Assembly (NCBI GenBank): GCA_021646415.1
Contig: SOEU01000003.1
Coordinates: forward strand, 124,001-188,000
Direction of reading: 5' to 3'
DNA length: 64,000 nt
From: Candidatus Brocadia sp.
GTDB taxonomy: Bacteria; Planctomycetota; Brocadiia; Brocadiales; Brocadiaceae
The notes beneath the pieces were generated by a model. The model was not told where the DNA came from. It worked only from the letters and a program-made list of their open reading frames with translations, and ran no database searches. Both the position numbers and the translations under genes were made by a program. Positions 5,440 through 60,978 of this stretch are shown here, one piece after another; position 1 is the stretch's first letter, and the number at the start of each line of letters is the position of its first letter.

Positions 5440-6891
5440 CTAAAGCAACGCATTTTCATAACTATCGAGACTGGTTGATATTGTTTGACTGGCGGTATCT
5501 GCATTTGCTTTATTAACCTCGTCACTGGCATCCCTCAATTCATGCAAGGCATCTTCTATCTCCCCGCTGTCATCGATACCAAGGAGCAACTCCAAATCCT
5601 CCAAAAATACCTCTGTATAGAGGAGCGCCTCTTCGGCAGTTATCATGGCATCACCGCGATTATTTGCATTGAGGGCAGAGGCGTTAGACTCTAATTCTCC
5701 CCTGACACGACCAATAAAGCCTTTACTCAGTTCGCTTACCATAGTATCGGCATTCACATCAGCTAAATCACCGGCAAGCTGGGATTTTATAATTTCGTTA
5801 CCTTCGGGGTTATCACGTGAGACAAATTCCTCAATGATCCTGTAATAAACCTCCCCCTCTTTTTGGTTCACAAGGGCTTTTTCCGGGTTGCTGTCCCTGT
5901 TGTTGAGAACACCTTCGACTTCCCTGAGGACTGCTATATAGAATGCCCTGATGAGGGAGAGTCTGATGACCTGACGCTGTATACCAAGAGTAATTTCGTC
6001 TTCGTCATGGTCTTTCCTGTCCAGCGCCTTCTGTCCACGGATAAAGGCAACCAATATCTGGTCTTCCAGATTGGGATTACTTCCCGTTTCGATAGATGTA
6101 CGGTCCTCGGTAAGCACCTTATTTTCCCTGTCGGCCGTACCTGTAATAGGCTGGTAAGCTGAGTATGCCTCATCCCATAAGAATTTAAGATCCGACTTTT
6201 TTGCATCATGAAAATTATCACGGGCAGCGGTAATACGCTCAAGAATCGCTAAGTAAAACACCCGTTGCAGTGTCTTATCAATAACCTGTGCGGCCAAATC
6301 GGGCTCATTATTGTTTTTGATGTCTTCAATGGCGGCTAAAATATCACTATCCAGGGTTAACGTATTTTCTGTATCCACCTCTTTTGTCAAATCCTGCAAT
6401 TCCCCCTCATAAGCAGACGCAATGGCATCTCCATCAACTGGAACCTGTCTTCTCAGCACACCAATTTCGTTGTAGGAAGCAACCGCGGCATCCATTGTCT
6501 TGGTGTCGGTGGTCTTTGTGTAGTTTGCAAATTTTAAGGTAACATCCCTTTCTGCCTCTTCACTGTTTTCGCTTATCTTCAAAATTTCAGTTCCTGTTTC
6601 ATAACCACCGGATTTAACGGTGAGTTTGTGTTTCCCTTTTTTTACATTATCGATTTCATAGCTACCTTCAGAATCTGTTAAAACTATTTTTTTCGATCTC
6701 TTTCCATTGGTATTCTTTTTTGATTTGATCGTAATAAGTGCGTCTTCTATGGGATCGCCATTTTCATCTGAAACGATGCCGATGATTGACGCCGCATGAA
6801 GAGCAGGTATATTCATATCCGGCAAATAGGTACCACTGAAAAAACCAACAATAATCCCTAATGGCATAAACAACTTGTTTAACGAAAACAT
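5440..6891 (-). CDS. Secreted protein: carboxypeptidase-regulatory-like domain plus duplicated helical domain
   Basis: The 483-residue protein begins with a signal peptide. Residues about 35-115 form a CarboxypepD-regulatory-like beta sandwich, with IIGIVSDENGDPIEDALI and YEIDNVKKGKHKLTV. The rest is Ala/Glu/Asp-rich and helical and contains two related halves, seen in the paired segments RVFYLAILERITAARDN and LIRAFYIAVLREVEGVL. That arrangement recalls FEA1-like iron-assimilation proteins, but I hold this only as a weak possibility. The ATG at 6891 is preferred to the upstream TTG at 6915 because AGAGG precedes it. A 13-base palindrome lies just upstream. The neighbours are a Gly-Ser-tailed cytochrome and a Gly-Ser-tailed protein with the same N-terminal domain type. 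Confidence 0.65.
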   Translation of the reverse strand: MFSLNKLFMPLGIIVGFFSGTYLPDMNIPALHAASIIGIVSDENGDPIEDALITIKSKKNTNGKRSKKIVLTDSEGSYEIDNVKKGKHKLTVKSGGYETGTEILKISENSEEAERDVTLKFANYTKTTDTKTMDAAVASYNEIGVLRRQVPVDGDAIASAYEGELQDLTKEVDTENTLTLDSDILAAIEDIKNNNEPDLAAQVIDKTLQRVFYLAILERITAARDNFHDAKKSDLKFLWDEAYSAYQPITGTADRENKVLTEDRTSIETGSNPNLEDQILVAFIRGQKALDRKDHDEDEITLGIQRQVIRLSLIRAFYIAVLREVEGVLNNRDSNPEKALVNQKEGEVYYRIIEEFVSRDNPEGNEIIKSQLAGDLADVNADTMVSELSKGFIGRVRGELESNASALNANNRGDAMITAEEALLYTEVFLEDLELLLGIDDSGEIEDALHELRDASDEVNKANADTASQTISTSLDSYENALL

Positions 6892-6917
6892 TGATTTCAA
6901 ACCTCTTTCTTTCAACA

Positions 6918-13189: not shown

Positions 13190-13290
13190 AGACACTCGAT
13201 AAAGGCAAACCCTGAGTGATCAGGGGACGCAAAGCAAAGGGTCTTAGCTAAAAAACGGTTTAAGCGGCTAAAAATAAGACAGCCTTACTG
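13190..13290 (+). promoter_or_regulatory. Cyclic di-GMP-I (GEMM) riboswitch
   Basis: The segment has the conserved GEMM core: GGCAAACC (13204-13211), a stem with a GTGA tetraloop (CCTGA-GTGA-TCAGG), GGACGCAAAGC (13225-13235), and a second helix GTCTTA/TAAGAC acting as receptor arm. AAGGC at 13202-13206 can pair with GCCTT at 13282-13286 to close the aptamer. GEMM-I RNAs bind the second messenger c-di-GMP. The next element is a terminator whose 5' arm overlaps the closing strand, so ligand binding would favour read-through into the gene at 13387. A second, related copy lies at 40622-40730 on the other strand. Confidence 0.85.
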
Positions 13291-13335
13291 CCGAAGATGT
13301 TTTGGTAAAAATCTTTGCAGTAAGGCTTTTTTTGT
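13281..13335 (+). terminator. Riboswitch-controlled intrinsic terminator
   Basis: AGCCTTACTGC at 13281-13291 pairs perfectly with GCAGTAAGGCT at 13317-13327, followed by a run of T. It lies between the aptamer and the start of the SBBP gene and shares the GCCTT segment with the closing helix of the aptamer. Confidence 0.85.
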
Positions 13336-26628: not shown

Positions 26629-29600
26629 CTATTTTATTAGCGAAAATTCTATGAATGTTTCTTCCACATCGGTAAATCCAAATCTCTTTAGAATCGGGGT
26701 GTTTGGGCCGATGTCACGCTTGAATTCGAAGTCCAGGCGATAGATCCCGTTGTCTAACTCGCTGAATTCGTTATTCCCGCTCTTAATAAAAATGAATGCC
26801 CTTGTGCCGTCCTGATTTTTAATAATATTTGAATCAACTTCAGCCAGCCCGGCAGTTGAGAAGATCGGTCGGGTGTGTAATATTTCATTATCTGTATCTT
26901 TAATCCTTATGTAGGTTCCCGCGGCCTCGAATATGCCACTTTGGTGACCGGCATAAAGATTGACATGTTCGGTTTTGTCAGGAGAGGTCGGCTGAGGGCC
27001 GTTGTAAATTCTGATGCGTGTGCCAGCCAGGTAAAGGCTGTTTTCGGGAAAACGATAATATTCCTGGTACTCCTCCCCTTCACCGGCGGAGGTGGATAGA
27101 TATTCAACGATGAACCCCGAAAGATCGGTCGTTGCCATGACCAAAATATCAACCCACTGATTATTAGAATAGATACTAATTTCCTCAATGTTAGTTTTGC
27201 CTGGAACTGCAACATTTTCGACACCGCCGTCTATGATTTTCACCACGGTATCAGCTTCTTCTATGGTATCGACCCGGTTGGCAAATAAAACAGTTAACTC
27301 GGTTCTATCCCAATCCAGAGGTTCGGGACTTTCCAACAGCAAGCCGTAAGACTGATGCTTGTTGTTCATTAATGCGACTTCCATACGCTCCGGCAGTGAT
27401 CTAGGGTTCAGGTCGAAGATCGACATGAGCTGTTCGAATTTAACAGATTTTTCCTCTGAATTGGTCAATATCTGCCCCAGAGCGGTTGCGTCTATCTCGT
27501 AATCAGGGTTTTCGAGAAGGTTAAAATGATTCCAGACGGCGTCCTGAAACGAGTGGATATGATGGATGAAATTCGCGTACCTCGAAGTTAAGAAGGCAAA
27601 CTCATAAACCGGCATATCTCCGGCCATGACCAGCGCCCGGTATTGAATCTGAGGCTTTAATAACAAGTCACTTGAAGAGGCGAGTATCTCATTGTTTGTC
27701 TCGGTAGTAACACCTACCATAGTCACACACCCGCTGTCGTTAAGTATGTCCTCGTAACGCGTTTCTTCTCTGGTCAGTGAAAGTTCGGGGTTATCACCCC
27801 ACAGGTTAACGAATTCCAGCTCCTCACCAGCGGCATTCAAGACCGGAAGATTATTGTTATCCAATAGCCTGATCTTGATCGGCAGTCCAGCCATCTGGTA
27901 CATCTGATCGATATAGGAATCGTTGTAAACAACACCAATATCGTATGACCGGTAGATGTAAGGCTGTGCTTCATCCGCCGTAGCTCCTGCCGGGATGGTG
28001 TAATCTATGTATGCACTTATGTCCTTTAATGGTCCATCTAAATCATATCGGTTAGTGTCGTCAACTTCCGTTTGTGTTGACGCAGGTGGTCCGGGAGGAT
28101 TGCCTGTCTTAAAGAACATGTATTCCATGAAGGATGCCCCCGGGTTTTCCCATTCCCCTTCATTTTTTCTTCTACTGCTTTGGGTTTCGATGACGAGGCG
28201 GTAGTATTTATTGGGCTCCAAAATTTGGGCAGTATGCTTACCCCAGGTTTCTTCAAGACTGGTTTGCAAATGAGTGCTCAAACCGGAATTATACTCAAAT
28301 ATATCGCGTGCTTCCTTTGTTACGCCACAGACACGGATAATATCAAAACCACCGGCCACAAGAAAAGACCGGAATGCTTCTCCTGTATCCAGACTGAGGA
28401 TAACGGGTTGCATCTCTTCATCAGGTATCGTTGATGGGATATTGAATTCAATTTGTTTTAGCTCTCTGTTTTCCTTATCATATAAGTAAACTGTTCCCAG
28501 AGACTCTTTTGATAAATAAAGATCTGCCCTGACAATATCTTCAGGTGGCGTAACCAATATGGAAGGCATCTTTACGCTATGATGCTCTTCATAACAAATC
28601 TCGATGATGCGTATCCCCCGTCCGATCATGCCTATTTTCCGGATAATTGAGGAGGTTGATTCCAATTTATAAACCGCAGCTTCACCTGTATTTCCAAATA
28701 GTTTAGCCTCATCAACGATATTGCCATCTCCATCAAAGGCAGTGAAAAGCACCTCAGGTGCATCGCTAACAATACAGGTAATCCAGACTTTATATGGCAA
28801 GGCCGGAAAAGCGTTTTCAGGAAAATAGATGTAAGCCGGAATTGTATTGGGATCATCCAATAATGACCAGTTAATATATAGTTCAATGTTTTCGCCTGAG
28901 TATTTATTGGTGAATTGGATATATGAGTTATATCCTATCCCTGCTGTGATGATCACATCTTTGATAACTTTAGTATTAATTTGACCGGTCGGTTCCTGCG
29001 CTTTGATATTTAAACATTCGATGGTAAAATAACCATCTACATTGCTGAGCGCTTTTGTCGTCCCGATCCAGAGGGCCTGGTAGCCATGGACATTCATCGG
29101 GAAGGGTGACGTAAAGATAAATTCATTCTGAACTAATATAAAATAATAAGTGCCTGACTCGCGATCCTCGAAGTCTGTGCAAATAGTCTCTTCTGTGATT
29201 TCGGGCAGACAAGGGTAGTTAGGATCATACACGCTCAGGGTGTTGTACCACATATCGGAGTTGTCCAGAACTCTTGAAATTTCAAAAGGTGTTGTTGCAT
29301 TTAAAAACAGTTTCGTGTTGCCCTGATCAGCTCCCGGTATTATTTGCCAGAAACCGGATAAGCTATAATCACCTACTGCAGGAATATAACTTTTCCAGTC
29401 TCCACTTTCCATATCCGTTTCATCCCATGCATCACAATATTCCAATTTAACGCTGACTAGTTCATACTTAAATTCGTAGTCGCCGACTTTTTCATAATTA
29501 CTTGACAATGGGACAGGATTGGCACCTATATAACCGTTATCGATCACGGGTTTATCAAAATTGAGTACCAGGTATACATCGGGTGGTACCACGGGTACGG

Positions 29601-32220
29601 TAAGTCTGGATGGGAATGCATCAGAGCCATCTCCAACATAAAGTCCATCCGAATCAACTTGGTATGGACTATATTTCGGTATCTCCCAGTTCTTAGTAAC
29701 CTTCCGGTGCTCAATGCCGAGCAATGGTGAGAGTGGAACCGGAAAAGGCGGCACTCCCGTTTTTTCCCACTTCAGATTAATTTCAGCCTTCGGCTTGCCG
29801 AGAGGCGTCTTGAGTTGCACCTCTAAAGAAGCGGAGATAGATAAGGGTTTGGGGGCCTGAGCGGTGACATTGGCCTCTACCGAAATGCCCAGGCTGACAA
29901 TGCTCGCGCTGAGTTCTGCATTGCCATACAGGGTTATCGAACCTTTTGCTTGTAAAGGCATCGTGCTCAACCCCAGCTCACCGCTAATCCAGGCCTCGAG
30001 GACGACACGTAAGATGCCATATTTCTTATCCAGACCGTAACCGATCCATGCGCCCATCAGGAGACCTTTGTTGTCCACCATCAGGTAGGTCTGGGCTTGG
30101 AAAAAATTGAGGATATCAGCACGGATCCTTTTTGATTCCGGTTTGTCCTCACCCAGGTAGAGGTGCCAGCTACTGGGGTCGGCTGCACTAAAATATGCCT
30201 CGGCAGCACCGATAACATCCAGCAATTCACCGCTATCTTTGGGAAATTGATATGAGGCTGAGATGTTCATCAGGAATGTCCCGGCCGTAGGGTCGAGAAC
30301 GGCCAAAACCCGCATGAGATAATTCTCACCCAGGGAGAGCATACCGGCGTGTCCTTCGATCAAAAGAACCGGTCCCGGTATGAGGATGACAAATAAGACC
30401 TTCGCTTTCACCGTAAACTTTACATCAGGCAGGGTTCCCACCGTGACACCGGCGCCAAATGCCATGGCGTCCTTTTGTTTGATCCACTTGCCGGTAGGGC
30501 TGGCATCAGTTAAGTCGGGGCGATTGGCCACATCCTCATAGTCGATAAGCGCCTGGTAGTCGAGGGTCATATTCTGACCATATAAACCGGCCAAACCATA
30601 AAGACCGAGAATAGGAGGCCCTAATGGTATACCGACGGGCAAATCGAGACCGATAGCGATATAAAAATAATTGTAATCCGTTGTTTTGCCAGTGATGAAC
30701 TGAGCATCCACTACTAGGTTAATGGGGATGAGATTCAGGCTTACTCCGCCGCGGAATTCCTTGATGTATTCGGGTTCTTCTTCGTCGATGAAATAGACCG
30801 ATCCGTCAAAAGTGAGCACATTTTCGATTTCGAACTGCAGATAGACACCGCCAATCTTAAGCTTAAACTCCCCGTCTTCAGCCCACATGACCTTAAGTCC
30901 TTCCACACCCCCACGCAAGGGAAGCGCCTCAATAATCTGAATACCCCCGGAGAAACCGATCCATTTGAACAGCTTGCCCTCCAGCTCATCGCTACCGAAT
31001 CCTAGCTTTGCAATCTCTAGTTTGAATCCATGGAAGTCCAGAGCTTTCTGGTCGGGTAACTCAATCCACCCCCCTTCCACTCTAACCGTTCCATCCGAGC
31101 CGATGGTGAGTCCCTTCAGTTCAAACGAAGGCCAGGCAAGTCCCGCAAGTTCCGGCGTAACTTCGCCGGTCAACTTAAAAAACAATTCTTCGCCTTCCTT
31201 GACAAATTCCAGACTGCTGACCTCGATGGAGATGATGCCATCTTTTTCCAGTATGAATAAGCCATCAGGATCGTTTACTCTTATGGTAAAATCACCATCA
31301 TTGGTCAAGCCTACTTCTACCGCAACAGCTTCATCAAAGAAAGGCAACTGCAGGTAGCCCGCGATGCTTCCTGAAACCAGGGCGTTTTGTTTGAATTCAA
31401 TACCAATGCTCGTGGTCCTGAATTGAAATCCAAAGATGTCGCCGGACATCTCATCGAAGGGATTTTCCGGATCATCCGGGGTCCAATTACCGGTAACCTT
31501 ACCGCAAAAGCCGCCGGAGCCGATGAAAAAATCTTCGAGCGTAACGTCATCGGGCAAAATTCCGTTTAACCCTTCGGGGAGGTGGATGGTGGCCTGCTCA
31601 AGGTAGACGCCGCGCCAATCGTCCGGAATGGAATCGGGCAGTGTTTCAACTGCTTCCGCAGAAAGGATTAACTTAAGGGCAGTCACCTCAATGATGACAC
31701 CGGTATCACCTATCATGAACGGCTGAATCGCCAGTGCAGGCGCACCCTCCGCAAATGTGAAAGCAAAATCGCCGTCGGAATTGACGCTCAGATCCGCACC
31801 TTCCATGAGGATCTCTACCGGCTGCGGTTCTTCCGTCTCCGGGTCAGGCGGGGCTTCTACGAAGCCGTCTGCGGTGGCTTCCATCCTCTTCAGTAAACCC
31901 GTTTGAAAGCGTAGCGCTGCAGAGAGAGATTGGAGTGCAACAGCAAACCAGTCACCCAGGTATTCAATTTCAAAGCCGAATTCCGTGAAATCGCCGTTGT
32001 TGAGCACTGCCAGAGAGAGTCCGGGAATAAGCGGTAAATCGGCTTCGATGTCAACGAGGATTTGCAATGTGCCACTTGCGACCAGCGAGGAATGACCACT
32101 GGATGTCGCTTCGAAATCCGCCAGACCTATCTGGTCTATCTGAGGGGGGATTGCCAGAATATTAGTCGGCCATCCGGAGAGGATCAGCCGAATCGGTACG
32201 AATTGTGTCAAATCACTCAT
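26629..32220 (-). CDS. 1863-residue leaderless beta-rich giant (possible DUF6603-like), unknown function
   Basis: No signal peptide or membrane helix is visible at the N-terminus (MSDLTQFVPIRLILSGWP). The first 850 residues are an unusually regular series of amphipathic beta strands with short turns (for example KLKIGGVYLQFEIENVLTF), like an extended beta sheet or barrel. In style it resembles large uncharacterised proteins annotated DUF6603, a family call I could not verify. A hydrophobic stretch GIPLGPPILGLYGLAGLYG lies in the middle. The remaining 1,000 residues look like several Ig/fibronectin-type domains. It is the last gene of the riboswitch-controlled operon, 31 bases behind the second metallopeptidase, with AAGGTAAGG before its ATG. 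The function is unknown. Confidence 0.7.
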   Translation of the reverse strand: MSDLTQFVPIRLILSGWPTNILAIPPQIDQIGLADFEATSSGHSSLVASGTLQILVDIEADLPLIPGLSLAVLNNGDFTEFGFEIEYLGDWFAVALQSLSAALRFQTGLLKRMEATADGFVEAPPDPETEEPQPVEILMEGADLSVNSDGDFAFTFAEGAPALAIQPFMIGDTGVIIEVTALKLILSAEAVETLPDSIPDDWRGVYLEQATIHLPEGLNGILPDDVTLEDFFIGSGGFCGKVTGNWTPDDPENPFDEMSGDIFGFQFRTTSIGIEFKQNALVSGSIAGYLQLPFFDEAVAVEVGLTNDGDFTIRVNDPDGLFILEKDGIISIEVSSLEFVKEGEELFFKLTGEVTPELAGLAWPSFELKGLTIGSDGTVRVEGGWIELPDQKALDFHGFKLEIAKLGFGSDELEGKLFKWIGFSGGIQIIEALPLRGGVEGLKVMWAEDGEFKLKIGGVYLQFEIENVLTFDGSVYFIDEEEPEYIKEFRGGVSLNLIPINLVVDAQFITGKTTDYNYFYIAIGLDLPVGIPLGPPILGLYGLAGLYGQNMTLDYQALIDYEDVANRPDLTDASPTGKWIKQKDAMAFGAGVTVGTLPDVKFTVKAKVLFVILIPGPVLLIEGHAGMLSLGENYLMRVLAVLDPTAGTFLMNISASYQFPKDSGELLDVIGAAEAYFSAADPSSWHLYLGEDKPESKRIRADILNFFQAQTYLMVDNKGLLMGAWIGYGLDKKYGILRVVLEAWISGELGLSTMPLQAKGSITLYGNAELSASIVSLGISVEANVTAQAPKPLSISASLEVQLKTPLGKPKAEINLKWEKTGVPPFPVPLSPLLGIEHRKVTKNWEIPKYSPYQVDSDGLYVGDGSDAFPSRLTVPVVPPDVYLVLNFDKPVIDNGYIGANPVPLSSNYEKVGDYEFKYELVSVKLEYCDAWDETDMESGDWKSYIPAVGDYSLSGFWQIIPGADQGNTKLFLNATTPFEISRVLDNSDMWYNTLSVYDPNYPCLPEITEETICTDFEDRESGTYYFILVQNEFIFTSPFPMNVHGYQALWIGTTKALSNVDGYFTIECLNIKAQEPTGQINTKVIKDVIITAGIGYNSYIQFTNKYSGENIELYINWSLLDDPNTIPAYIYFPENAFPALPYKVWITCIVSDAPEVLFTAFDGDGNIVDEAKLFGNTGEAAVYKLESTSSIIRKIGMIGRGIRIIEICYEEHHSVKMPSILVTPPEDIVRADLYLSKESLGTVYLYDKENRELKQIEFNIPSTIPDEEMQPVILSLDTGEAFRSFLVAGGFDIIRVCGVTKEARDIFEYNSGLSTHLQTSLEETWGKHTAQILEPNKYYRLVIETQSSRRKNEGEWENPGASFMEYMFFKTGNPPGPPASTQTEVDDTNRYDLDGPLKDISAYIDYTIPAGATADEAQPYIYRSYDIGVVYNDSYIDQMYQMAGLPIKIRLLDNNNLPVLNAAGEELEFVNLWGDNPELSLTREETRYEDILNDSGCVTMVGVTTETNNEILASSSDLLLKPQIQYRALVMAGDMPVYEFAFLTSRYANFIHHIHSFQDAVWNHFNLLENPDYEIDATALGQILTNSEEKSVKFEQLMSIFDLNPRSLPERMEVALMNNKHQSYGLLLESPEPLDWDRTELTVLFANRVDTIEEADTVVKIIDGGVENVAVPGKTNIEEISIYSNNQWVDILVMATTDLSGFIVEYLSTSAGEGEEYQEYYRFPENSLYLAGTRIRIYNGPQPTSPDKTEHVNLYAGHQSGIFEAAGTYIRIKDTDNEILHTRPIFSTAGLAEVDSNIIKNQDGTRAFIFIKSGNNEFSELDNGIYRLDFEFKRDIGPNTPILKRFGFTDVEETFIEFSLIK

Positions 32221-32251
32221 GGTTTATCCTTACCTTTGTCGTTACATCGTG

Positions 32252-34201
32252 CTAGGGTAACACATCGTCCGCATGGCCATTGAACACCTCTGTTTGGTTG
32301 AGAGTGATAAACAGGCCGTTCCGCCCCACATACATCATATTGCTATAGAAGCCCCAGTCACCGCCAGGGCATCCATGTTTAAAATGAATGTGCGAACCAC
32401 TACATAGAGGTAGCCCCGCCTTACGGTTAGGGAAAAAGATGAACACGTCCGAAAACCAGTGCCCCAACTCGTGAACAAGTGTTTTAGCTAAAGCCGGAAC
32501 GTTTGTAACATAATTAGGGTGCTTTGTATCTATCATGATTGCAGCAATGTCTGCCTCTTCCCATGCATAGCACACGCCAAGGGTTTCCGCAGTTCCGGCT
32601 GTTTCCAGGTTCCAAACAAATACTACGTTTATATTTTTAAATTGGTTCAACAGAAAGAAGTCGATAATGACGGCTTCCAAACTCGTGATGGGATCGCCAA
32701 GAAGTCCGCCCACATGGTGGTCGTGCAGAATAACGCCGCTTTCCTCAACCGGATAAATGTATACGTTGGTCTGCCTGCCCAGAATCTCATTTGCGTATGC
32801 GACCACCTCTCGCAGCTTCGGTTCGTCCATATCCGTCTGGTAATTGGAGTACGACGTATCAATCAGCTTGTAGAACTTCACGGGAACGGCGTGGAAATCC
32901 AGGAATGTGAGATTGAGGTCGCAAATGGTTTCTCCCGTTTCTCCGGCAATAATATTGACTATGGTTTCTCCCGGTGAGTTCGGAGTGGCGCTGAACTGAA
33001 CGACCTGTTCCGTCGTTGAAGAAGGGACCAGAAAAACATTCACCGCTGCCGACTCGTGCACGATTTGAATCGTCAGACCCAGCGGATTGCTGACCTTCAG
33101 CTTCGTAACCCAATGATCAGGCCCTAACGATGGGACGAGGTAAGGTGGGATTGCACTGGTCGGTGCCTTTGGCACAATCAGACGATGCGGGTCTTCATCG
33201 GGATCAAGCGCGAGCGGATGATAGATTGTCTCGGTTTCAGTAGGATTACTTGCAAAATACATAAAATCCTCGATGAGTTTGTCCTTTATGTACTCAATGC
33301 TTCCGTCAGGATCAACTGACGAGGGTATTACGTCCACGGTTCCCGATTTCACCGAACGCCCTAATAGTCTGGCTATGAGGGGATGCCCACTCAGGCGTGA
33401 ACGCCTTTGATGATATTTGAAGAACGTTCTCACAGCGTCGTCATGCGCATCCCATTGCCCGCCAACCTTGAAGAACATCGAAACCCGCTGTTCCTGTGTC
33501 GTATCCGGGCTATCTCTTGTTGAGGCGATTTGTGCGCCTCCTTTGACGATTATGGGCCAATCCGAATATTCCTTGAACTTTTGAAGATATTCCGAAACCC
33601 AGTCACCAGTGCCTTGCCACTCTGTCCCTGTTTTTGTTTTGTATTGTGTTTTGAAGAAGTCCTCTGTAGCCGTTTTTTTGATAAGCTCCTCTAACGCATT
33701 ATCATCCAGCATCTGCACGCTCAAATATACGCATTCTTCCAGTAGAGGTTTACTACCCGGATGCGATGCCCTCCAGCTAATCTTTACCGCGTTTAATGGC
33801 TTCAGAATCAGAATCTCTTCACCCGGGTTCGGCTTGGCCCCGCCCAAAAGGTCTCCAAAAGATTTCTCGTTATGAAAATAGAACAGATGCCCGGTTGTTA
33901 GTGCATAGACCGGCTGCGACCCCGAACCGGCGTATGTCAACCAATATTCAATGAACGTCACGACACCGGACAGATCAGTCAAGTCACGCGTTGCATTATC
34001 GGGCGCAATCTCAAAGTCCATGTTGCTAAACTCCGCTTCATACCCGGCGATCAAACTTTCAAGACTTACCCCTTCTTGTGTCTCCACAAGGGGCATTGCA
34101 TCGTCAATAAAGCTCTCACCCGCTTCTGGGGCAGCGTAAGGATCAAACGGCTCCAAGCGCTTGCCACAACCAAACGGTTGTAATATAATTGGGAAACCCA
34201 T
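32252..34201 (-). CDS. Leaderless HExxH metallopeptidase, paralogue 2
   Basis: The 649-residue protein shares blocks with the gene at 34335-36383 over its whole length, including HPGSKPLLEECVYLSVQ, GGAQIAS, YHPLALDPDEDPHRLI, YLVPSLGPDHWVTKLKVSNP, and AYANEILGRQTNVYIYPVEE. Near the C-terminus KTLVHELGHWFSDV carries the zinc-binding HExxH motif. Further on NMMYVGRNG may be a Met-turn, which would suggest a metzincin-like fold, though the usual third histidine spacing is not obvious. There is no signal peptide. It starts 133 bases behind its paralogue; the gap holds a 12-codon vestige of another gene. The substrate is unknown. Confidence 0.7.
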   Translation of the reverse strand: MGFPIILQPFGCGKRLEPFDPYAAPEAGESFIDDAMPLVETQEGVSLESLIAGYEAEFSNMDFEIAPDNATRDLTDLSGVVTFIEYWLTYAGSGSQPVYALTTGHLFYFHNEKSFGDLLGGAKPNPGEEILILKPLNAVKISWRASHPGSKPLLEECVYLSVQMLDDNALEELIKKTATEDFFKTQYKTKTGTEWQGTGDWVSEYLQKFKEYSDWPIIVKGGAQIASTRDSPDTTQEQRVSMFFKVGGQWDAHDDAVRTFFKYHQRRSRLSGHPLIARLLGRSVKSGTVDVIPSSVDPDGSIEYIKDKLIEDFMYFASNPTETETIYHPLALDPDEDPHRLIVPKAPTSAIPPYLVPSLGPDHWVTKLKVSNPLGLTIQIVHESAAVNVFLVPSSTTEQVVQFSATPNSPGETIVNIIAGETGETICDLNLTFLDFHAVPVKFYKLIDTSYSNYQTDMDEPKLREVVAYANEILGRQTNVYIYPVEESGVILHDHHVGGLLGDPITSLEAVIIDFFLLNQFKNINVVFVWNLETAGTAETLGVCYAWEEADIAAIMIDTKHPNYVTNVPALAKTLVHELGHWFSDVFIFFPNRKAGLPLCSGSHIHFKHGCPGGDWGFYSNMMYVGRNGLFITLNQTEVFNGHADDVLP

Positions 34202-34238
34202 CTTTATCCCCTCGCATTGCGTCGTGTTTTTCAGGCGT

Positions 34239-34277
34239 TCAACAAATCACCGCAAAAAATTGGCTCAGGTCACTCAT
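34239..34277 (-). pseudogene. 12-codon vestige of a second 1863-type giant
   Basis: Behind the stop of the first metallopeptidase an ATG reads MSDLSQFFAVIC and then stops. The 1863-residue protein begins MSDLTQFVPIRL, and the DNA before both starts shares ACAA-GGTAA at similar spacing. The position behind a metallopeptidase gene is also the same. It is best read as the beginning of a deleted copy of the giant gene. Because it is very short, chance similarity cannot be fully excluded. Confidence 0.6.
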
Positions 34278-34334
34278 TACTTTTTACCTTGTTATTCCAT
34301 TGTAGCTTCCGACAGATTTAGTCGCATTTCTGGG

Positions 34335-36383
34335 CTAGGGCAATACCTGATGCGCATTTTCATTAAACACCTTTGCCTGTTCGAATGTGATAAGCAGGCC
34401 CCCTGCCGATGCCATCAGGTTGTTATTGAAACTCCAATCACCCCCCGGGCATCCTTCATATAAATCACCGGGGTGGTCGAAATAAATGAAGGAACCGGTG
34501 CATTCGGGCAGGCCATTCTCCAGATTTGGTACACGGCTAAAGATGTTTGAAAACCAGTGTCCAAGCTCATGAACAAGGGTTGTACCCCAACCCAAATAGG
34601 TTGAGCTCTGTTGCGGTCCCTCCGTGTCTACCAAGATTATCGCAAGGTTGGCATCGTCTGAGTACGTAGTTACTCCGCTATTATTTTCAGTTGCCTCTTG
34701 GTTCCAGGCAAATATCGCATGGATGTTGTAAGGTTGATTCATAAAAAAGAAATCGTCCGCAACCCTTCTAACATCAGCTTTACTTATGGGGTCACCGAGG
34801 TCTCCGAAGAACACGATCTCATGCAAAATAATGATGCTTCCATCAAAGTTTTGTTCAACCGGATAAACGTACACGTTGGTCTGCCTGCCTAAAATCTCGT
34901 TCGCGTAAGCGATTACCTCTCGCAGCTTCTGCTCGTCTATGTTTGCCTGATGAATTACTGTCTGATTATTAGGATCCGTATCGCTCAGCTTGTAGAACTT
35001 AACGGGTACGGCATGGAAATCCAGGAAAGTAAGAACGATTTCATGAACTAATGCACCGTCTGCTTTGACCTGAATTTTCCTTTCTGTGTTCCCCGGGAAC
35101 AGAGTTTCAGATGCTCTCACTTCAACTATCTGCTGAGTCGCAACGATGTTTTCAAACGGGTTGATACTCACCTCTGCCGCGTTGAATCCCTCGATCGTGA
35201 CCGTTAGCCCAAGTGGATTGTGGATTTTCAGCTTTGTAACCCAATGCTCCGGCCCTAACAATGGGACAAGGTAAGGTGGGACTTCCGTGGGTGGGATTGC
35301 AGTGCTTGGTGACTTCGGGATGATCAGGCGATGCGGGTGCTCATCAGGATCAAGTGCGAGCGGATGATAAGATGAACCGGTCGAGATTGTGCCCAGCTTG
35401 AAGTCACTAATGAATGATGACTTTGTCCGGCGCAGAGGATCGCTTAATTTGAAAGATAAAAAATTAATCGGTTCAGGTGGAATTACGTCAACAGTTCCCG
35501 ACCGTACCGATTCACCTATCAGCTTGGCTATAAGAGGATGGCCAACCAAACCGGACCCCCTGCGTCTATAATATTTGAAAAAAGTCTTCACCGCTTCGTC
35601 ATGTCCCATCCCCGTCCAGAGTTCTTGCTGTCCTTCCAAGGTAAACTTAAAGAATAGGGTAATTCGTTGTGTCGGATCCGTCTGGCTATTGTTTTTTATC
35701 GAGCCAATTTGTGCGCCCCCGCGTACGAGAACGGGCACATCCGGAAATTCTTTGAACAACTTAAGATATTCTGCATCCCAGTTATCGCCCTGGAATTCAG
35801 ACCCCCTTTTTAACTTGTAAATCTTTTTAAAGTATTCTTCAGTACTTGACCTTTGAATAAGCAATTTGAGATTTTCATCCGACACTAGGGACACATTCAA
35901 ATAAGCACATTCCTCAAGCAACGGTTTACGTCCCGGATGTGAATCTTTCCAGTAGACATCCAGGATTGATTTTAAGGGCTTCAGAATAAACACGTCTTCA
36001 TCCGGTATAGCCCCACTTAGCAGCCCGGAATCAGATTTCCCGGCGGGAAGATAATACAAATGGCCGCTGGTCAATGCATACACAGACGTCAGCGATGTGT
36101 CAGTGTGTGTGAATGAATATTCAGTGAACGTCACTGTGCCCAAGGTGCGGGTTGTGCCCTCAACAAGGTTGATAGCATTCGCTTGTTGTTCAAAGGCATC
36201 GAACGCATCTTCCAGAGAACCCTCAATACGCGGAATTAGGATAAGAGGCATCGCGTCCGCAATCCAAGAAAGATCCTTTGCTTCCTGCTTCCCAGCGAGC
36301 GGATCAGGCGGTTCGATGTCTTCCAACAGGCCTTTCTCCCCAGAACAAAGCGCTTGTAGCATAATTGGTATTGGTAGACTCAT
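34335..36383 (-). CDS. Leaderless HExxH metallopeptidase, paralogue 1
   Basis: The 682-residue protein starts MSLPIPIMLQAL without a signal peptide. Large shared blocks make it a paralogue of the gene at 32252-34201. Its active-site region is TTLVHELGHWFSNIF with HExxH, followed by FDHPGDLYEGCPGGDWSF and NLMASAGG. The N-terminal two thirds contain a possible enzyme or carrier domain (VYALTSGHLYYL, SIMI1/KNR4-like in style, not verified) and an Ig-like section before the peptidase domain. Its ATG overlaps the TGA of the 1380-residue gene (ATGA) and has AAGGAG upstream, so translation should be coupled. Confidence 0.7.
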   Translation of the reverse strand: MSLPIPIMLQALCSGEKGLLEDIEPPDPLAGKQEAKDLSWIADAMPLILIPRIEGSLEDAFDAFEQQANAINLVEGTTRTLGTVTFTEYSFTHTDTSLTSVYALTSGHLYYLPAGKSDSGLLSGAIPDEDVFILKPLKSILDVYWKDSHPGRKPLLEECAYLNVSLVSDENLKLLIQRSSTEEYFKKIYKLKRGSEFQGDNWDAEYLKLFKEFPDVPVLVRGGAQIGSIKNNSQTDPTQRITLFFKFTLEGQQELWTGMGHDEAVKTFFKYYRRRGSGLVGHPLIAKLIGESVRSGTVDVIPPEPINFLSFKLSDPLRRTKSSFISDFKLGTISTGSSYHPLALDPDEHPHRLIIPKSPSTAIPPTEVPPYLVPLLGPEHWVTKLKIHNPLGLTVTIEGFNAAEVSINPFENIVATQQIVEVRASETLFPGNTERKIQVKADGALVHEIVLTFLDFHAVPVKFYKLSDTDPNNQTVIHQANIDEQKLREVIAYANEILGRQTNVYVYPVEQNFDGSIIILHEIVFFGDLGDPISKADVRRVADDFFFMNQPYNIHAIFAWNQEATENNSGVTTYSDDANLAIILVDTEGPQQSSTYLGWGTTLVHELGHWFSNIFSRVPNLENGLPECTGSFIYFDHPGDLYEGCPGGDWSFNNNLMASAGGLLITFEQAKVFNENAHQVLP

Positions 36384-39300
36384 AGTCGTCTCCTTACATT
36401 TGGCCGTATTCTTACGGCGTTCGATGGGTCGGACGGTGGATCAATGACGATTGTGGTTTGACTTGTTGAGAGCAATTTCGCATGAGATTTGGACTTTCCA
36501 ACGTAAGTATAGCTTTCACTGACGCCCGCTAACCTGTCGAGATGGAATCTTCTTCCAGTAATGAATGACCCTCCTGACACCCAGTTGGCGATAACGGCAC
36601 TGAAGCTGCTCGACGCGCCAATTCTCGCAATGAGTACAGATTTGACACGGGCGTCTTCCATCCAAACGAGCCGAATGGCCGGCTGCGGATTAGACGCCTC
36701 TGTCAGGTCCGCACCCCATTCGTATACGGTACCGTTGTCGTCCACGTACACCCAGCCAGAATTCACTTCATCCCACTGCGGCGGCTCGGGTGGTGTCAAG
36801 TCATACGCCTGTCCACTCTTTGTCGAGGACATTCTCGATTTCAGCTGCTTGCCGTTGTCATCAAGCCCTACCGCTACCAGGCCGTAATAATACGGTTGCC
36901 TTGGAAGGACGGTGTTATCGATAAATTCAAACTCCTTCTGAGGCAAAGGTTCCGTAACTTCTACGGTATAAGTATCTGTATCATTAGCCTTAATGAACTC
37001 CATCCGGCGCCAGTCTTTGGCTTTTTTATTATCCTGAGTTCGATATAGCAAATACCCTGCGATCTCAGCCCCCGGATTCTTCGCCCACCTGATAGTGATT
37101 TGGTTTTCGCCGCCCGCCACCGCCGTAATGACCGGAGCGGGAGCTGGAGTAGTTTTGGGAACCTCCACAGGAGGTGTGGCTAAGCTCAATACACTCTGCA
37201 TGCCGTTGGTATCCACTGATCGTAGCGCATAAAAATAGCGGTTATTGCCCCTGCCGTCCAAGGTTTCGTCCACATACAGCAAGACATTAGCAGGATCAGG
37301 GGTGTAGGTCGCGCCTCTGACCGGGTCGGGTATTTCAGTAATTCTATCCTCATAAGCCGGATCACTTTCGTCAATCGGAGTACCGTTTAACTCGGTAAAG
37401 GCGTTCACATTATCGGGAAGACTGGCTAATATCTGCAATTGTCCCGGCGTAAGTCCTGCATAATTTTGCGCAACGAGCTTGGGATTCGATTCAAAGGAGA
37501 TCTCTTTTACCACGTCCACATCAGCCGGGTCAAATTCCGGATGATTGGCCTTGAAATCATCGTAAACAGAGGCGCTGCGGGTTTGCCTTATTTTGTTATC
37601 TACAACAAAAAGCGTATCGTCCAATACTCTGTAAACGTAATGCTTCACCGAGGTTTTTTCTTTTTGCCAGCGCAAGGCAAAGGACGACTTGCCGTGCACA
37701 TTGGCCGGTGTGGCTTTCAATGCTTGAATCGGTTCATCCGGTAGTGGTGCAAAAGCAATGGGAGCGGCGGGCGTTCCACGGTAAATCGCCATGATCGTCG
37801 ATGGGGGAGAAACGCTACCGAGCACATCGCCGATAAAGGAGTTGACGCCAATCTGGGCGTATCGTACCTTATTGATATCGGAAGCTTCAATGGCCGGATT
37901 CGGAAAAGCAGGATCTTCGATATACACCGTATAATCAGCCCTCAAATCTTTCGGCTCCTGATGGGTGATACGGTTGTCTGTCCAATGCTCAGGGTTTTTG
38001 TAGTCAATAAAAAATTTCTTCTCAGCCGTGACGGCAATACCGAAGCCTTTGTCTTTTAAAGGAATATCGTTCAGTTTCAATACCCAGAGGGAAGGTTGAC
38101 TTTCCCCATTGTTTTTCAGGATCAAAAAGCTGTGGTTTCCCTGGGTGAGCCAGCACAACCGGAAAGCATCTTCGGGGAGTATGGCTCTTTCTCCATCTCT
38201 TGTCATGAAAGGTATCGGTTCAGGCAAAGGGGGAGGATACACATCGAGCGAAATCTGGAATGTATAAACCGGGATATCTTCGGGAGTTTCCTCGAAGATA
38301 GCATACTTCTCAAGTTCTTTTTGCGTGAGGTTGAGGCTAGTCTTTGCCACCACCACTTCAATCGGCTCGGTCACAATGATGCCGGTATAGGTATTCAACC
38401 ACCCCTGCATGAAGTAAACGTTAAACCCTTCCACATCCGGGGCCTGCAACTGTAAATTTTCAGGCCATTTCCAACGGACGACAATCGCATTTTTCCGGTT
38501 CGCACGAAGCCAGTCTTTGTCAATATCGTTTATCATTGAATCAGCGAAAGAATCCTCCGAAGGATTGTATGTGCTACAGTCAAGGAATTGGGCTTTAACA
38601 TCGATAGGATGAGGAGGTTTAGGAGCGGTTAACTCATAGGTCTCAAATTCGGTGAACTCACTTTGCCTGCCAAAGAGGTCAATGGCGGCAATGCGGTAAT
38701 GGTTCACGGTTTCTCTTGTAATCGCTTCGGTATAATACTGCCGCTCTTTTGGCCACCCGATGGGAATGTTGCGCTCGCTCCTTTCAACGACCAAAGGCGT
38801 TACAAAGATCGGTGAGTCCTCTGTCAGTAACTCAACAGCGCCTCCTTCTAGTTTTCGCTCGATGTGATATAACACCGGTGCCAGAGAAATCAGCTCTTTT
38901 TCCGGGTCTTCGTTCACGTCCCATCGCAATCCGGCAAGGTAGGGTTTCTCGGTAACGTTTCCATCCTGGTCTGTAACTGTGCCTCCCGGAAGAAATGATG
39001 CCGCCAATCCGGTAGGTCGTGTCAACGGTAAGTGTGATTGTTGGGATACTCCGCAAATTATGTATTGTTGCAGGTCTACCGGATAGGGATCGAAATCATA
39101 ATGGATACGGCAAAGAATAGCATGGGATGTATGTATTTTGATGGAATCAATTTGCTCAGCCCGCAGGCGTAACATGCCCCGTTCCAGCAATAGATCTTCT
39201 CTATCCACCCAGGCCGAAAAAAGATGCTTGTATGCCTCAACTGTTATTTTGCTTCCCGGTGTAAAATCCGGGTTTACCAGTACAAGCTGCACCTCTGTAA

Positions 39301-40522
39301 CCGGTTTTAAGAAGTTAATAACGATGGGCAGGTTTTCTGCTGTAACGTCCAGTCCCAACTCAGTTCTGAAAAGCGGATAGGATGATTCCGCGATCTGCGG
39401 TGGTTTTGGAGCATAAAGAACAACATGATCGTCAAGCTGCTGTATCGGGAAGAATGATTCATGAAGCTGGTAATCATCGAACGTGATTTCATGATCCAGC
39501 CTCCGTTTATTCCACCCAGGCCACTCTGCGGTTACCTTATAATCGTAATAGGTATCATTGTCCGTATCCTTGTCCACAAAGTATAAGTCCAGTATCCTGG
39601 CAAAAAATACGTGTAAACTTTGAGCCAGAAGAAAATCGTATTTTGAGCACTCCATCGTTTCATCGGTAGCCGCTTCTTCATTATTGGGGAAAAGGGTCCA
39701 ACCGACGGGTACAAGAGACCCCTCGTCCACCATGCTCAGCAACATCGCTTTTAATTCCAGGAATTCTGCCGCTGTTATGGGGCTGTCCGCCACGTTTAAA
39801 TATCCCAGCCTGCACAGTGCCGTAGCCAGGTCTCTTCCGATGATGGGAGGATAGACATCATTCACATAAGGTGTTCCTTCCTGGTTCACGGGTAAGCCGC
39901 ATCCGCAAAGTTCGTTGATCCGCTTCCATTCTCCCTTGACCGTACAAATCCACCCGGCCAGTGCCGCAAGATTGATCTCCCTTCCCCGGAGGACGATCCC
40001 CATTGTGCCTGGAGCATCAAAGGAAATATTTTTGAAGCCTCCCGTGCCCCCGAAAACGGTGTGGGGATAATAATCGCCATCTTTGGTCTGAGCTATAATT
40101 TGAAATCTTGACTTACGGCTGACGAGAAACCCCAATTCTATTCTTGCAACCGGCTTGGAAAAGGAAATCCTAAGCTCGCCGTTGATGGGAATCATGTTTA
40201 TGGGAAGTCCACCTGCGGGAGTAACTTCCTCAACCGTAAGCGCCTCTACTTCATTGCCATTGATTTCTGCAGAGACCAATCGAATTTTGAGGTCTGTATT
40301 GTGCTCTATTTCCTGGGTATAGGGTAGATTTAAAGTTTGATTAGGGAGATCTTGAAGTTGGAACTCATACCTGTTTCCAATATCGCTCTTGCGCCGGTAA
40401 AGCTTAAAACAAGCCGGGAAACCGAGCTTATCATGAAAAGCCCATCTCAAATGGATGCCTTCTTCAATCCCGTCTGAACCGTTCGTGCCGTGACCGATCA
40501 TTTTTAGATATTCAACTTTCAT
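36380..40522 (-). CDS. 1380-residue leaderless multidomain protein with Ig/fibronectin-like modules
   Basis: The first gene of the operon starts at an ATG about 50 bases behind the riboswitch terminator. The N-terminus (MKVEYLKMIGHGTNGSDGIE, then GIHLRWAFHDKLGFP) has no signal peptide. Several fibronectin-type-III-like stretches are visible, such as RWDVNEDPE...HYRIAAIDLFGRQSEFTEF, IRWAKNPGAEIAGYLLYRT with YYYGLVAVGLDDNG, and others toward the C-terminus. The C-terminus is basic (RIRPNVRRRL). No catalytic motif is recognised. The build suggests a large scaffold or adhesive protein, but without a leader its export, if any, would need a dedicated route. It overlaps the next gene by 4 bases. Confidence 0.7.
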   Translation of the reverse strand: MKVEYLKMIGHGTNGSDGIEEGIHLRWAFHDKLGFPACFKLYRRKSDIGNRYEFQLQDLPNQTLNLPYTQEIEHNTDLKIRLVSAEINGNEVEALTVEEVTPAGGLPINMIPINGELRISFSKPVARIELGFLVSRKSRFQIIAQTKDGDYYPHTVFGGTGGFKNISFDAPGTMGIVLRGREINLAALAGWICTVKGEWKRINELCGCGLPVNQEGTPYVNDVYPPIIGRDLATALCRLGYLNVADSPITAAEFLELKAMLLSMVDEGSLVPVGWTLFPNNEEAATDETMECSKYDFLLAQSLHVFFARILDLYFVDKDTDNDTYYDYKVTAEWPGWNKRRLDHEITFDDYQLHESFFPIQQLDDHVVLYAPKPPQIAESSYPLFRTELGLDVTAENLPIVINFLKPVTEVQLVLVNPDFTPGSKITVEAYKHLFSAWVDREDLLLERGMLRLRAEQIDSIKIHTSHAILCRIHYDFDPYPVDLQQYIICGVSQQSHLPLTRPTGLAASFLPGGTVTDQDGNVTEKPYLAGLRWDVNEDPEKELISLAPVLYHIERKLEGGAVELLTEDSPIFVTPLVVERSERNIPIGWPKERQYYTEAITRETVNHYRIAAIDLFGRQSEFTEFETYELTAPKPPHPIDVKAQFLDCSTYNPSEDSFADSMINDIDKDWLRANRKNAIVVRWKWPENLQLQAPDVEGFNVYFMQGWLNTYTGIIVTEPIEVVVAKTSLNLTQKELEKYAIFEETPEDIPVYTFQISLDVYPPPLPEPIPFMTRDGERAILPEDAFRLCWLTQGNHSFLILKNNGESQPSLWVLKLNDIPLKDKGFGIAVTAEKKFFIDYKNPEHWTDNRITHQEPKDLRADYTVYIEDPAFPNPAIEASDINKVRYAQIGVNSFIGDVLGSVSPPSTIMAIYRGTPAAPIAFAPLPDEPIQALKATPANVHGKSSFALRWQKEKTSVKHYVYRVLDDTLFVVDNKIRQTRSASVYDDFKANHPEFDPADVDVVKEISFESNPKLVAQNYAGLTPGQLQILASLPDNVNAFTELNGTPIDESDPAYEDRITEIPDPVRGATYTPDPANVLLYVDETLDGRGNNRYFYALRSVDTNGMQSVLSLATPPVEVPKTTPAPAPVITAVAGGENQITIRWAKNPGAEIAGYLLYRTQDNKKAKDWRRMEFIKANDTDTYTVEVTEPLPQKEFEFIDNTVLPRQPYYYGLVAVGLDDNGKQLKSRMSSTKSGQAYDLTPPEPPQWDEVNSGWVYVDDNGTVYEWGADLTEASNPQPAIRLVWMEDARVKSVLIARIGASSSFSAVIANWVSGGSFITGRRFHLDRLAGVSESYTYVGKSKSHAKLLSTSQTTIVIDPPSDPSNAVRIRPNVRRRL

Positions 40523-40571
40523 GGGATACCACGATTCTCAGTTATAAGTCACAATCGTTCTCACTTCCTAA

Positions 40572-40629
40572 AAACAAAAAAGCCTTACTGGAGAGATATT
40601 CATCAAGAACATCTTCGGCAGTAAGGCTG
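40572..40629 (-). terminator. Riboswitch-controlled terminator of the giant operon
   Basis: On the minus strand AGCCTTACTGCC (from 40629) pairs with the CAGTAAGGCT arm ending at about 40581, followed by TTTTTTG. The stem has the same sequence as the terminator at 13281-13335, with a longer loop. Confidence 0.85.
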
Positions 40630-40730
40630 TCTTTTACCAGAGGTGTCTTTCAACTACTACCCTGTGAGTTTCAAGACCCTTTACTTTGCGTCCCCTGATT
40701 GCTCAGGGTTTGCCCTTATCGCGGTGCTTT
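40622..40730 (-). promoter_or_regulatory. Cyclic di-GMP-I (GEMM) riboswitch, second copy
   Basis: Read on the minus strand, GGGCAAACC is followed by the hairpin CCTGA-GCAA-TCAGG, GGACGCAAAGT, and a longer arm opened by GGGTCTT and closed by AAGAC, then GCCTT. The stems, the GNRA tetraloop and the conserved GGACGCAAAG match the GEMM-I consensus and the copy at 13190-13290; the receptor arm is longer and different. The terminator overlaps the closing strand, so c-di-GMP would be expected to switch the 14-kb operon on. Confidence 0.85.
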
Positions 40731-40762: not shown

Positions 40763-40792
40763 ATCTTAAACAGGAGATATCCGTTATGTCAA
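40763..40792 (-). promoter_or_regulatory. Sigma-70-type promoter of the giant operon
   Basis: On the minus strand TTGACA (40792-40787) and TAAGAT (40768-40763) are 18 bases apart. Transcription would begin about 25-30 bases before the aptamer. Confidence 0.5.
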
Positions 40793-46226: not shown

Positions 46227-47596
46227 ATGGCCCTGTCCTCACGGAAGTGGGGAAAAGGGTGTATTTTTGAACATTTTCATTCAGATATAATTTGTCAATT
46301 TGAAAGATTTGATACCTTACCTTTCAATTACCTTTCAACGAGTCAGACTACCCCTTCCGGCATGACACCACCTTATCTCAAGCCCACAAGCAAAAGGAAA
46401 AGGCAGCCTTGTGGCAGGAAGCACGGACATAAGGGGATTTCCCGGAAACGGCCCGAAACCATAACTGCCTATCAGACACATACCCTGGAGAGTTACCCTG
46501 ACTGTCAGCAGCTGCTGCAAAAGCAGGTAAGAACGTATAAGCGATACATCGAGGATATTCCACGCCTTGACCCTGTCGTGACGGAACATACGGTTCATGG
46601 TTACTGGTGTTCTTGTTGCAAAAAGATAGTTCAACCCATGGTCACAGATGCCTTGCCAAACGCCAGACTCGGATTGCGCCTCGTTGTCTTTACCGCCTGG
46701 CTTCATTACTTAGTCGGTATGAGTGTAAACAATATCGTAAAGATGGTTTCCGTATTTTTCAACCTTCACATAAGCGCCGGTGGTTTAACCCAGGCATGGA
46801 AGTCTCTTGCCACACTCCTGGAATCACGGTATAACGATATTGGACGAGAAGTCTCTGCCAGCGCCGTCTTGCACGCAGATGAAACCGGGTGGAGGTTGAA
46901 TGGGAAAACCCATTGGTTATGGTGTTTTACCACCAAAACCCTCTGCTACTACCTCATAACACGGAATCGGGGGGCGCCTGTCATAAAAAAGTCTTAGGCA
47001 CGTTGTTCAAGGGTATCCTGATCTGTGACTTCTGGGGCGCTTATAACAAGATAAGCGCGCTGGCAAAGCAGCGGTGTTTCTATCATCTTTTCACAGAACT
47101 CGTGAAAGTAGGCACCTACAACCGTTCTACCTCATGGAAAGTTTTCAGGAAAAAACTTTCCCGGCTGCTCAGGGATGCCATCCGACTATCCGAGAAAAAG
47201 AACCAAGTGAGCCAGGCATGCTTTCTTAGACTCAAAAAAAGGTTGTATCGCAGGCTTAAACAGTTTCTGGCAACACCCTGTCAGGATAAAGACTCACAAA
47301 GATTGACCAAGCGTTTGAATCGCCATAAACAGGAACTCTTCACGTTCCTGGAACATGAGGGTGTGAGTCCCTATAATAACCACGCTGAGCAACAGATGCG
47401 AAAGCCAGTATTGACCCGAAAGGTTTCACAACAGAATCGTTCTAAACACGGGGCAAAAACTCAGGCAATCCTCATGACTTTGCTTCGCTCTGCGGAATTA
47501 CAGGGGACTAATCCAGTGGAAAGCCTTCTGGCAAGTGCAGAAAATGCTCTTACGGCTAAAACGCCTTCTGGGTTAACTCATAAAATCGCTAGTTAA
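46227..47596 (+). pseudogene. IS66-family transposase (TnpC), frameshifted
   Basis: Two frames join at A AAA AAG (about 46985-46991): the first ends at the TAG behind VIKKS, the second resumes as VIKKVLGTLFKG in the -1 frame. Together they give about 456 residues. The GRKHGHKG zinc-ribbon start, the DDE residues in LHADETGWRLNG and LICDFWGAYN, and the final Glu in PYNNHAEQQMRKP identify the IS66 TnpC transposase. No tnpA or tnpB is present, as in the ISBst12 branch. The N-terminal coiled coil is missing or truncated. The heptamer is a canonical -1 slippery site, so programmed frameshifting is possible; decay is the other explanation. Confidence 0.75.
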
Positions 47597-60029: not shown

Positions 60030-60400
60030 TCGCCTTAAAAGGATTACGCATAAGCGGTAATTCACCAATTCGTGAAGGGCAAATTCTTACTGGTGCGCTG
60101 TTTAACGAACCCATTGCCATTCTCATGGTCGTTGGTTCGCATTGATTGGTGGTCTGCGGCTGCATTCAAGTGCAAGGTACGTGACCAATGGATGGATGGC
60201 CTTCTTTTCTCCAGTACAAACGTCTGTCTTTTCTTGCCAATAACAGCCGTTTCCTGATCTTACCCGATATCCGCATACCAAACCTTGCATCTCATGTCCT
60301 TGCTCTGAATCTCAAACGGTTATCCTGCGATTGGCAAACCTTCTACGGTCATCCCATTTATCTTGCAGAAACGTTTGTTGGCCCGCAGTACTTCAAACGA
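60030..60400 (+). pseudogene. DruA/DUF4338-like remnant
   Basis: Fragments in two frames read DWWSAAAFKCKVRDQWMD and NNSRFLILPDIRIPNLASHV, then LKRLSCDWQTFYGHPIYLAE. These match the DUF4338 domain found in DruA of the Druantia defence system and in front of some ISAs1-type transposases. The first part (about 60035-60110) reads SPIREGQILTGALFNEP, similar to the N-terminal LEGALFxEPMRV motif of SNF2-family helicases, which suggests a further fused remnant. Stops and frame changes show that it is dead. The last frame runs directly into the transposase fragment. Confidence 0.5.
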
Positions 60401-60978
60401 TTATCACAAATCCCTGACCCACGCACGCCACGAGGCAAGCGGCACAAAAAGCTTTCTGTACTAACAGTTGCCATTTGCGCACTTCTGTGTTCTGCCTCGA
60501 ACTATGCTGCAATTGCACAGTGGGCAAAGTCTTGTACGCAAAACATGCTCAAACGGCTGGGCTGCCGGTTCAATAGAAAGACCGGGCCGATACGAACCTC
60601 CCAGCGAACCCACCATCAGGCGGTCTTACAGGAAGTCAGCGCCGAAGCCGTTGATACCGCCGTGTACGGTTGGCTACAATCTCTTTCAGGGAAAGACCCC
60701 TATGCGGCGCCCACCAGCAAGACGGCCATAAAGTCCACCTCCTCTCTGCATTTCTCCAGCAAAAAGATGTGGTTATTGCCCAATGCGCCGTTGACCGCAA
60801 AACCAACGAAATCCAAGCCCTTCGCACCCTCCCTGACCCGTTAGATATCAAAGACCGTGCGGTGACCCTCGATGCCCTACATACCCAGAAAGATACTGCA
60901 CGGTATATCGTTGAAGAAAAAATGGCTGATTACCTTTTTGTCGTAAAAAAATCAATCTACCCTCAAACAGAACAATGA
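60391..60978 (+). mobile_element. ISAs1-family transposase remnant
   Basis: The first frame has RLSQIPDPRTPRGKRHKK and SVLTVAICALLCSASNYAAI, the N-terminus of ISAs1/H-repeat transposases. After a frame change near 60680 it continues as HLLSAFLQQKDVVIAQCAVD, RKTNEIQALRTLPDPLDIKD and VTLDALHTQKDTARYIVEEK, which holds the second catalytic Asp. The C-terminal third is missing: the fragment stops where the NUDIX gene ends on the other strand. Confidence 0.75.

Follow-up and report, generated by a model that had tools for sequence, protein, structure and literature searches.

A candidate gene module of two giant proteins and a variable third protein downstream of a c-di-GMP riboswitch in Candidatus Brocadia

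In the 64,000-nucleotide stretch of a Candidatus Brocadia genome analysed here (the window; assembly GCA_021646415.1, contig SOEU01000003.1, positions 124,001 to 188,000), four minus-strand open reading frames (ORFs) running in one direction from 40522 to 26629 encode the proteins B, C1, C2 and A (1380, 682, 649 and 1863 residues) downstream of a cyclic di-GMP (c-di-GMP) riboswitch. The claim that sequence comparison makes defensible is that the giants A and B form a conserved, patchily distributed pair accompanied by a variable third protein, C, and that this arrangement is undescribed as far as the searches show. The A-B-C module matched no known kind tested; newness refers to the gene module, whose mechanism we infer.

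A (P0004) was found beside B (P0001) at ~23 loci with profile support in six phyla, a count that partly uses B profiles from the same clades and is circular within clades. The groups concerned are Planctomycetota, Spirochaetota, Myxococcota, Alpha- and Betaproteobacteria and Actinomycetota. Among the loci examined, every A whose flanks were complete had a B next to it; several contigs stop near A. Homologues of A were obtained from Mycetohabitans plasmids (29-30% identity over 66-83% of A), Azospirillum and Paracoccus, and a pattern scan added a Spirochaetales metagenome-assembled genome (MAG), a Myxococcales MAG, Sphingomonas, Nannocystis, rhizobia and several actinobacteria. In sampled surveys, A occurred in 3/392 Planctomycetota genomes and in 9/379 from the phylum of Nannocystis, two of these nine with E ~6e-4. 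The B proteins were connected by a chain of profile comparisons (own to Mycetohabitans, P = 2e-20; Mycetohabitans to the distant planctomycete G356, 1e-9; G356 to G416b, 3e-8; G416b to actinobacterial, 6e-13; actinobacterial to rhizobial, 1e-8), with controls no better than 0.026, and because of this chain between clades they were treated as one family. An earlier note on this DNA had taken as its unit four families, including two metallopeptidases, and suggested looking for their co-occurrence elsewhere. C1 and C2 were found in this genome only; the conserved pairing that does exist is that of the giants A and B, with a variable third protein.

The operon and its leader comprise the following features (window positions).

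40763..40792, minus strand: sigma-70-like promoter TTGACA-18 nt-TAAGAT, 40 bases upstream of the aptamer; a weak candidate (10/12 matches in a consensus scan)
40613..40723, minus strand: c-di-GMP-I-GGC riboswitch aptamer RF03167, 67.5 bits (cut-off 59), model matched full-length
40570..40627, minus strand: expression platform with terminator GCCUUACUG (40627-40619) ... CAGUAAGGC (40590-40582), then UUUUUUGUUUUU, from sequence, alignment and folding
36380..40522, minus strand: B, giant immunoglobulin (Ig)/fibronectin type III (FnIII)-like protein, leaderless, 1380 residues, N-terminal motif GIHLRW...LGFP..F.LYRR
34335..36383, minus strand: C1, putative metallopeptidase, 682 residues, HELGHWFS at residue 605; further conserved H, GGDW and N-x-M downstream
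32252..34201, minus strand: C2, paralogue of C1 and putative metallopeptidase, 649 residues, HELGHWFS at residue 577; weak match to Reprolysin_3 (E=0.059)
26629..32220, minus strand: A, giant all-beta protein, leaderless, 1863 residues; relatives labelled DUF6603 in RefSeq
29776..31080, minus strand: conserved core of A (residues 381-815), PVGIPLG..GLGLYGLAGL, whose antiparallel strands are amphipathic and whose model is barrel-like; its profile matches ~30 loci

B and C1 overlap by ATGA at 36380-36383, and 31 bases (32221-32251) separate C2 from A. The gap between C1 and C2 is 133 bases, in which no strong terminator was found by eye. These coordinates bear out the sizes, contiguity, overlap and 31-base gap given in the earlier note. 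Its statement that no signal peptide is visible agreed with our scan, a home-made heuristic rule applied to the module ORFs rather than SignalP, in which none of the four N-termini was signal-peptide-like. The Ig/fibronectin-like build that it described is plausible for B, for which the I-set match was sub-threshold (E=0.088) and no firm match was obtained. It had also remarked on the lack of nearby phage-tail or sheath genes, and no sheath or tail family was present among the window ORFs scanned; a complete-looking extracellular contractile injection system (eCIS) lies on another contig of the same genome (C14), outside the window that it saw.

A, B, C1 and C2 gave no match at a meaningful score in Pfam or NCBIfam, and B, C2 and A gave none in PADLOC or, by sequence, in the PDB, to which the C2 C-terminal domain was also compared by sequence without a match. 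Homology searches, which the earlier note had named among possible refutations, left the proteins outside the known families of these databases. The best family hints, both sub-threshold, were those of B to I-set and of the C2 C-terminal domain to Reprolysin_3. C1 and C2 are paralogues (50-51% identity), each with HELGH and the conserved downstream H, GGDW and N-x-M. Compared with the metzincin pattern HExxHxxGxxH/D plus Met-turn, HELGH and N-x-M are there; the third ligand and the canonical G are missing from their expected positions. No relatives of C1 or C2 were found in the 392 Planctomycetota genomes, viral contigs or plasmids searched. C2, modelled by AlphaFold together with its paralogue, reached pLDDT 30 and gave no usable fold. 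DUF6603 was not mentioned in any of 5.39 million open-access papers searched in full text.

Most loci encode a third protein alongside A and B. None was found on the short record from Paracoccus, and in some myxobacterial MAG loci the third protein is small or absent. Its kinds are as follows.

This Brocadia genome (G000): two paralogous HELGH proteins
Mycetohabitans, Myxococcales MAG and the congener G008: phospholipase D (PLD) with HKD motifs
Actinobacteria, Nannocystis and rhizobia: related degenerate PLD, with DAT, TST or RTT in place of HxK
Azospirillum and Sphingomonas: unrelated protein of 786-830 residues, no assigned family
Spirochaetales MAG (L008:420-2972): parallel beta-helix-like protein, no Pfam match above cut-off
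Planctomycete G356: HELGH + VWA + HYR protein

Within one genus the third protein differs, with putative proteases in G000 and a PLD in G008. Catalytic motifs (HKD, HELGH) occur in several type-1 modules and are lost in the type-2 degenerate PLDs; given this loss, C is described as variable and often, though not always, catalytic by its motifs. The pseudo-PLD family without HKD residues stands beside A and B as the third gene of loci L012, L016, L017 and L019. The G008 module is a divergent B-C-A (L113:3393-16735) in which the PLD gene is split across two overlapping frames; a subtilase with a P-domain lies upstream of it, and no riboswitch was detected there at the gathering threshold. A shared N-terminal docking domain of the Cs was considered and found no support (hhalign probability 0.1% for C1/C2 against the spirochaete beta-helix protein). 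A literature search on PLD in Mycetohabitans returned nothing relevant.

Residues 1-880 of A were modelled from 14 sequences, giving a long antiparallel beta structure (pLDDT 67, pTM 0.43). With Foldseek and VIA-align, the top matches were outer-membrane barrels (LptD, ushers, porins), and ApoB was among the matches; the BFVD fold search returned just weak tail-fibre-like and porin-like matches. The core strands alternate hydrophobic and polar residues (lag-2 z ~4 in four homologues). From the model, the core may possibly be a barrel, a lipid-binding sheet or another arrangement.

Upstream of B, the closing 3' strand of the aptamer, GCCUUACU, doubles as the 5' arm of the GCCUUACUG...CAGUAAGGC hairpin, which is followed by UUUUUUGUUUUU. 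A simple terminator scan missed this hairpin, the loop being long. Since aptamer and terminator are mutually exclusive, binding of c-di-GMP should block termination, and the anatomy of the leader predicts an ON switch. The earlier proposal that the operon is turned on by c-di-GMP fits this overlap, from which the direction of switching is read. The promoter scan yielded 3 sites against 1.6 expected in shuffles. There are 44 c-di-GMP-I-GGC aptamers in this 3.8 Mb, 42-contig genome, and 22-58 in seven congeners; with 44 copies, the riboswitch alone ties the operon to no particular other system. Further examples lie at C14:11976-12078, C18:4772-4881, C1:139993-140087 and, in the window, 13195-13296 (plus strand), where the associated gene encodes a 1364-residue SBBP/DUF7948 beta-propeller protein. 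Genes downstream of aptamers include the eCIS operon, a NarG-like oxidoreductase and a glycosyltransferase-like gene.

The host is an anammox planctomycete, as its Kustd1514-family anammox S-layer gene indicates (1856 bits, cut-off 1400; also in 5/7 congeners tested), which bears out the earlier placement among planctomycetes; we infer the order Brocadiales. A short stretch of a 491-residue protein (5440-6915, minus strand) resembles the S-layer family of anammox bacteria, at E=5e-9 and far short of the cut-off. The operon was likely acquired horizontally, judging from three sequence comparisons: its A groups with the spirochaete A (support 100/98), apart from that of planctomycete G356, in a tree that leaves out G008, whose A core is too divergent; the operon is absent from 9/10 congeners, the tenth, G008, having only its divergent module; and its guanine-plus-cytosine content is 47-49% against 42% in the surroundings. 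Transposase remnants (IS66 type; DDE_Tnp_1-associated) were observed at 46227-46997 and 60188-60844, beyond the promoter side of the operon. A 581-residue gene adjoining the operon is present among congeners only in G008, and flank synteny was uninformative.

Where the module acts is best read from G356, in which A, B and C all carry Sec-like signal peptides. The gene order there is A-B-C, with B starting at about the end of A and C just past B, and the proteins have Cys-rich stretches and D-G-D-G repeats. Among the As, only that of G356 has a Sec signal peptide; the Brocadia A has none. Three further calls of the heuristic scan (L006, L020, L132) look spurious, two of them being the conserved B motif itself. 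The G356 signal peptides make a site of action outside the cytoplasm probable for the module. Of the earlier suggestion of a cytoplasmic or non-classically exported assembly, the exported half is thereby favoured and the cytoplasmic half made less likely.

The best explanation, to which we give a probability of about 0.42, is a mobile three-part module in which an exported giant scaffold presents or delivers a hydrolase under c-di-GMP control. Binding of c-di-GMP to the leader RNA would block termination and so switch on the operon when cells are sessile and form aggregates. A, an amphipathic beta-sheet giant, and the Ig/FnIII-like B would assemble into a large scaffold. The C enzymes would be presented or delivered by this scaffold beyond the cytoplasm, through a non-Sec route in Brocadia and through Sec in one relative, and would there cut protein targets of neighbours or of the matrix. 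The ON direction, formation of the complex, export in Brocadia, protease activity and target are all predictions. A bolder version, which we consider rather doubtful, would be a new class of multi-phylum mobile effector complex in which the two beta-rich giants make up a carrier, its barrel-like core membrane-active or lipid-binding, and deliver an interchangeable protease or phospholipase to other cells by no known secretion system, controlled here by c-di-GMP.

Several points weigh against this explanation. The fold matches of A reach Z 11-14, yet their root-mean-square deviations are mostly 6-13 A and the model has a mean pLDDT of 67 and a pTM of 0.43. The Bs of Azospirillum/Sphingomonas and G008 are linked weakly, by position and N-terminal motif. 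Neither a signal peptide nor a secretion gene goes with the module in this genome or in almost any other. The protease role of C1 and C2 is putative, as their third zinc ligand was not located and no database family matched. The pseudo-PLD Cs without HKD in actinobacteria, Nannocystis and rhizobia suggest that C is not an enzyme in every case.

The trio is common to anammox planctomycetes, predatory myxobacteria, fungal endosymbionts, actinobacteria and soil proteobacteria. Giants outside the curated families searched, together with a partner that alternates between protease and phospholipase types, fit the picture of an effector or enzyme-display system not yet described. The module poses the question of how leaderless proteins of 1400-2500 residues are exported, if at all, and it is testable, as the hosts Nannocystis, Azospirillum and Planotetraspora are cultivable. 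It is also a candidate mechanism by which c-di-GMP may shape the anammox aggregates used in wastewater treatment.

Among the alternatives, a cytoplasmic complex that is never exported, for instance one that serves in defence or under stress and has a PLD nuclease or a protease as its effector, would suit modules that are leaderless in all but one genome, a PLD-type C in Mycetohabitans weakly like the DISARM protein DrmC (E=3e-6), and a patchy, mobile distribution that includes plasmids, beside toxin-antitoxin genes. In PADLOC, however, neither A nor B nor the C protease compared (C2) found a match, the G356 proteins combine signal peptides with Cys-rich stretches and D-G-D-G repeats, and the amphipathic, barrel-like core modelled for A suits a membrane or lipid setting. 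We regard this alternative as unlikely.

Improbable, too, is that the operon encodes a surface adhesin or a matrix system together with proteases that process it. The combination of a c-di-GMP riboswitch, an Ig/FnIII-like B and a putative metalloprotease in one operon would speak for this. The model for such a system is Clostridioides difficile, in which the adhesins CD2831 and CD3246 and the protease PPEP-1 are under c-di-GMP riboswitches (PMC8428550). PPEP-1, however, is turned off by c-di-GMP, and here the protease and the giants share one transcript. The Brocadia proteins have no signal peptide or anchor, the S-layer family of the genome is a separate gene family, and the C slot elsewhere holds a PLD or pseudo-PLD. 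A plain adhesin, one of the known functions that the earlier note had set against its own proposal, does not explain the trio; the other, eCIS cargo, may apply but is not required as an explanation.

As cargo or accessory parts of the host's own eCIS, the leaderless A, B and C would be co-induced by c-di-GMP and released on lysis of the eCIS-bearing cell. Leaderless proteins are typical of eCIS cargo. The eCIS (C14:12158-38726, L077-L079) has an RF03167 aptamer 80 bases upstream of its first gene; its sheath and Pvc16_N were identified by profile, and its ATPase, tubes, LysM-like protein, spike, PAAR, gp25 and J-like protein by eye. Its operon ends in an 815-residue protein resembling cargo. 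The eCIS marker Pvc16_N, however, is absent from 10/16 other module genomes (present in 6/16), so the module as a constant eCIS companion was rejected as a rule, and the marker is present in 4/9 module-free congeners. Module and eCIS were never adjacent in the genomes checked (C3 and C14 here), their proteins share no sequence similarity, and a riboswitch class with 44 copies says little about a link. At 1380-1863 residues, A and B are also large for the eCIS lumen. A literature search on eCIS in anammox bacteria found nothing relevant. The cargo reading is the least probable of the three alternatives.

Compared with known systems, the module resembles the eCIS in its leaderless proteins and in sharing the riboswitch class of the genome's own eCIS; it differs in having no tail genes and in that the eCIS marker is missing from most module genomes. 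As in the C. difficile c-di-GMP regulon (PMC8428550), proteins of adhesin-like build stand together with a zinc metalloprotease, putative here, under riboswitch control. The protease and adhesin of that regulon are, however, switched oppositely. They also carry export signals, unlike the proteins of this operon. The DUF6603 proteins of the Mycetohabitans relatives are homologues of A, with 29-30% identity across most of it, although that label denotes a domain of unknown function and the partner genes lie outside it. Tc toxins likewise combine large carrier-type proteins with a variable enzymatic partner. The module differs from them in that no Tc/RHS family match or homology was found, and in that its variable parts are separate genes, some of them catalytically dead.

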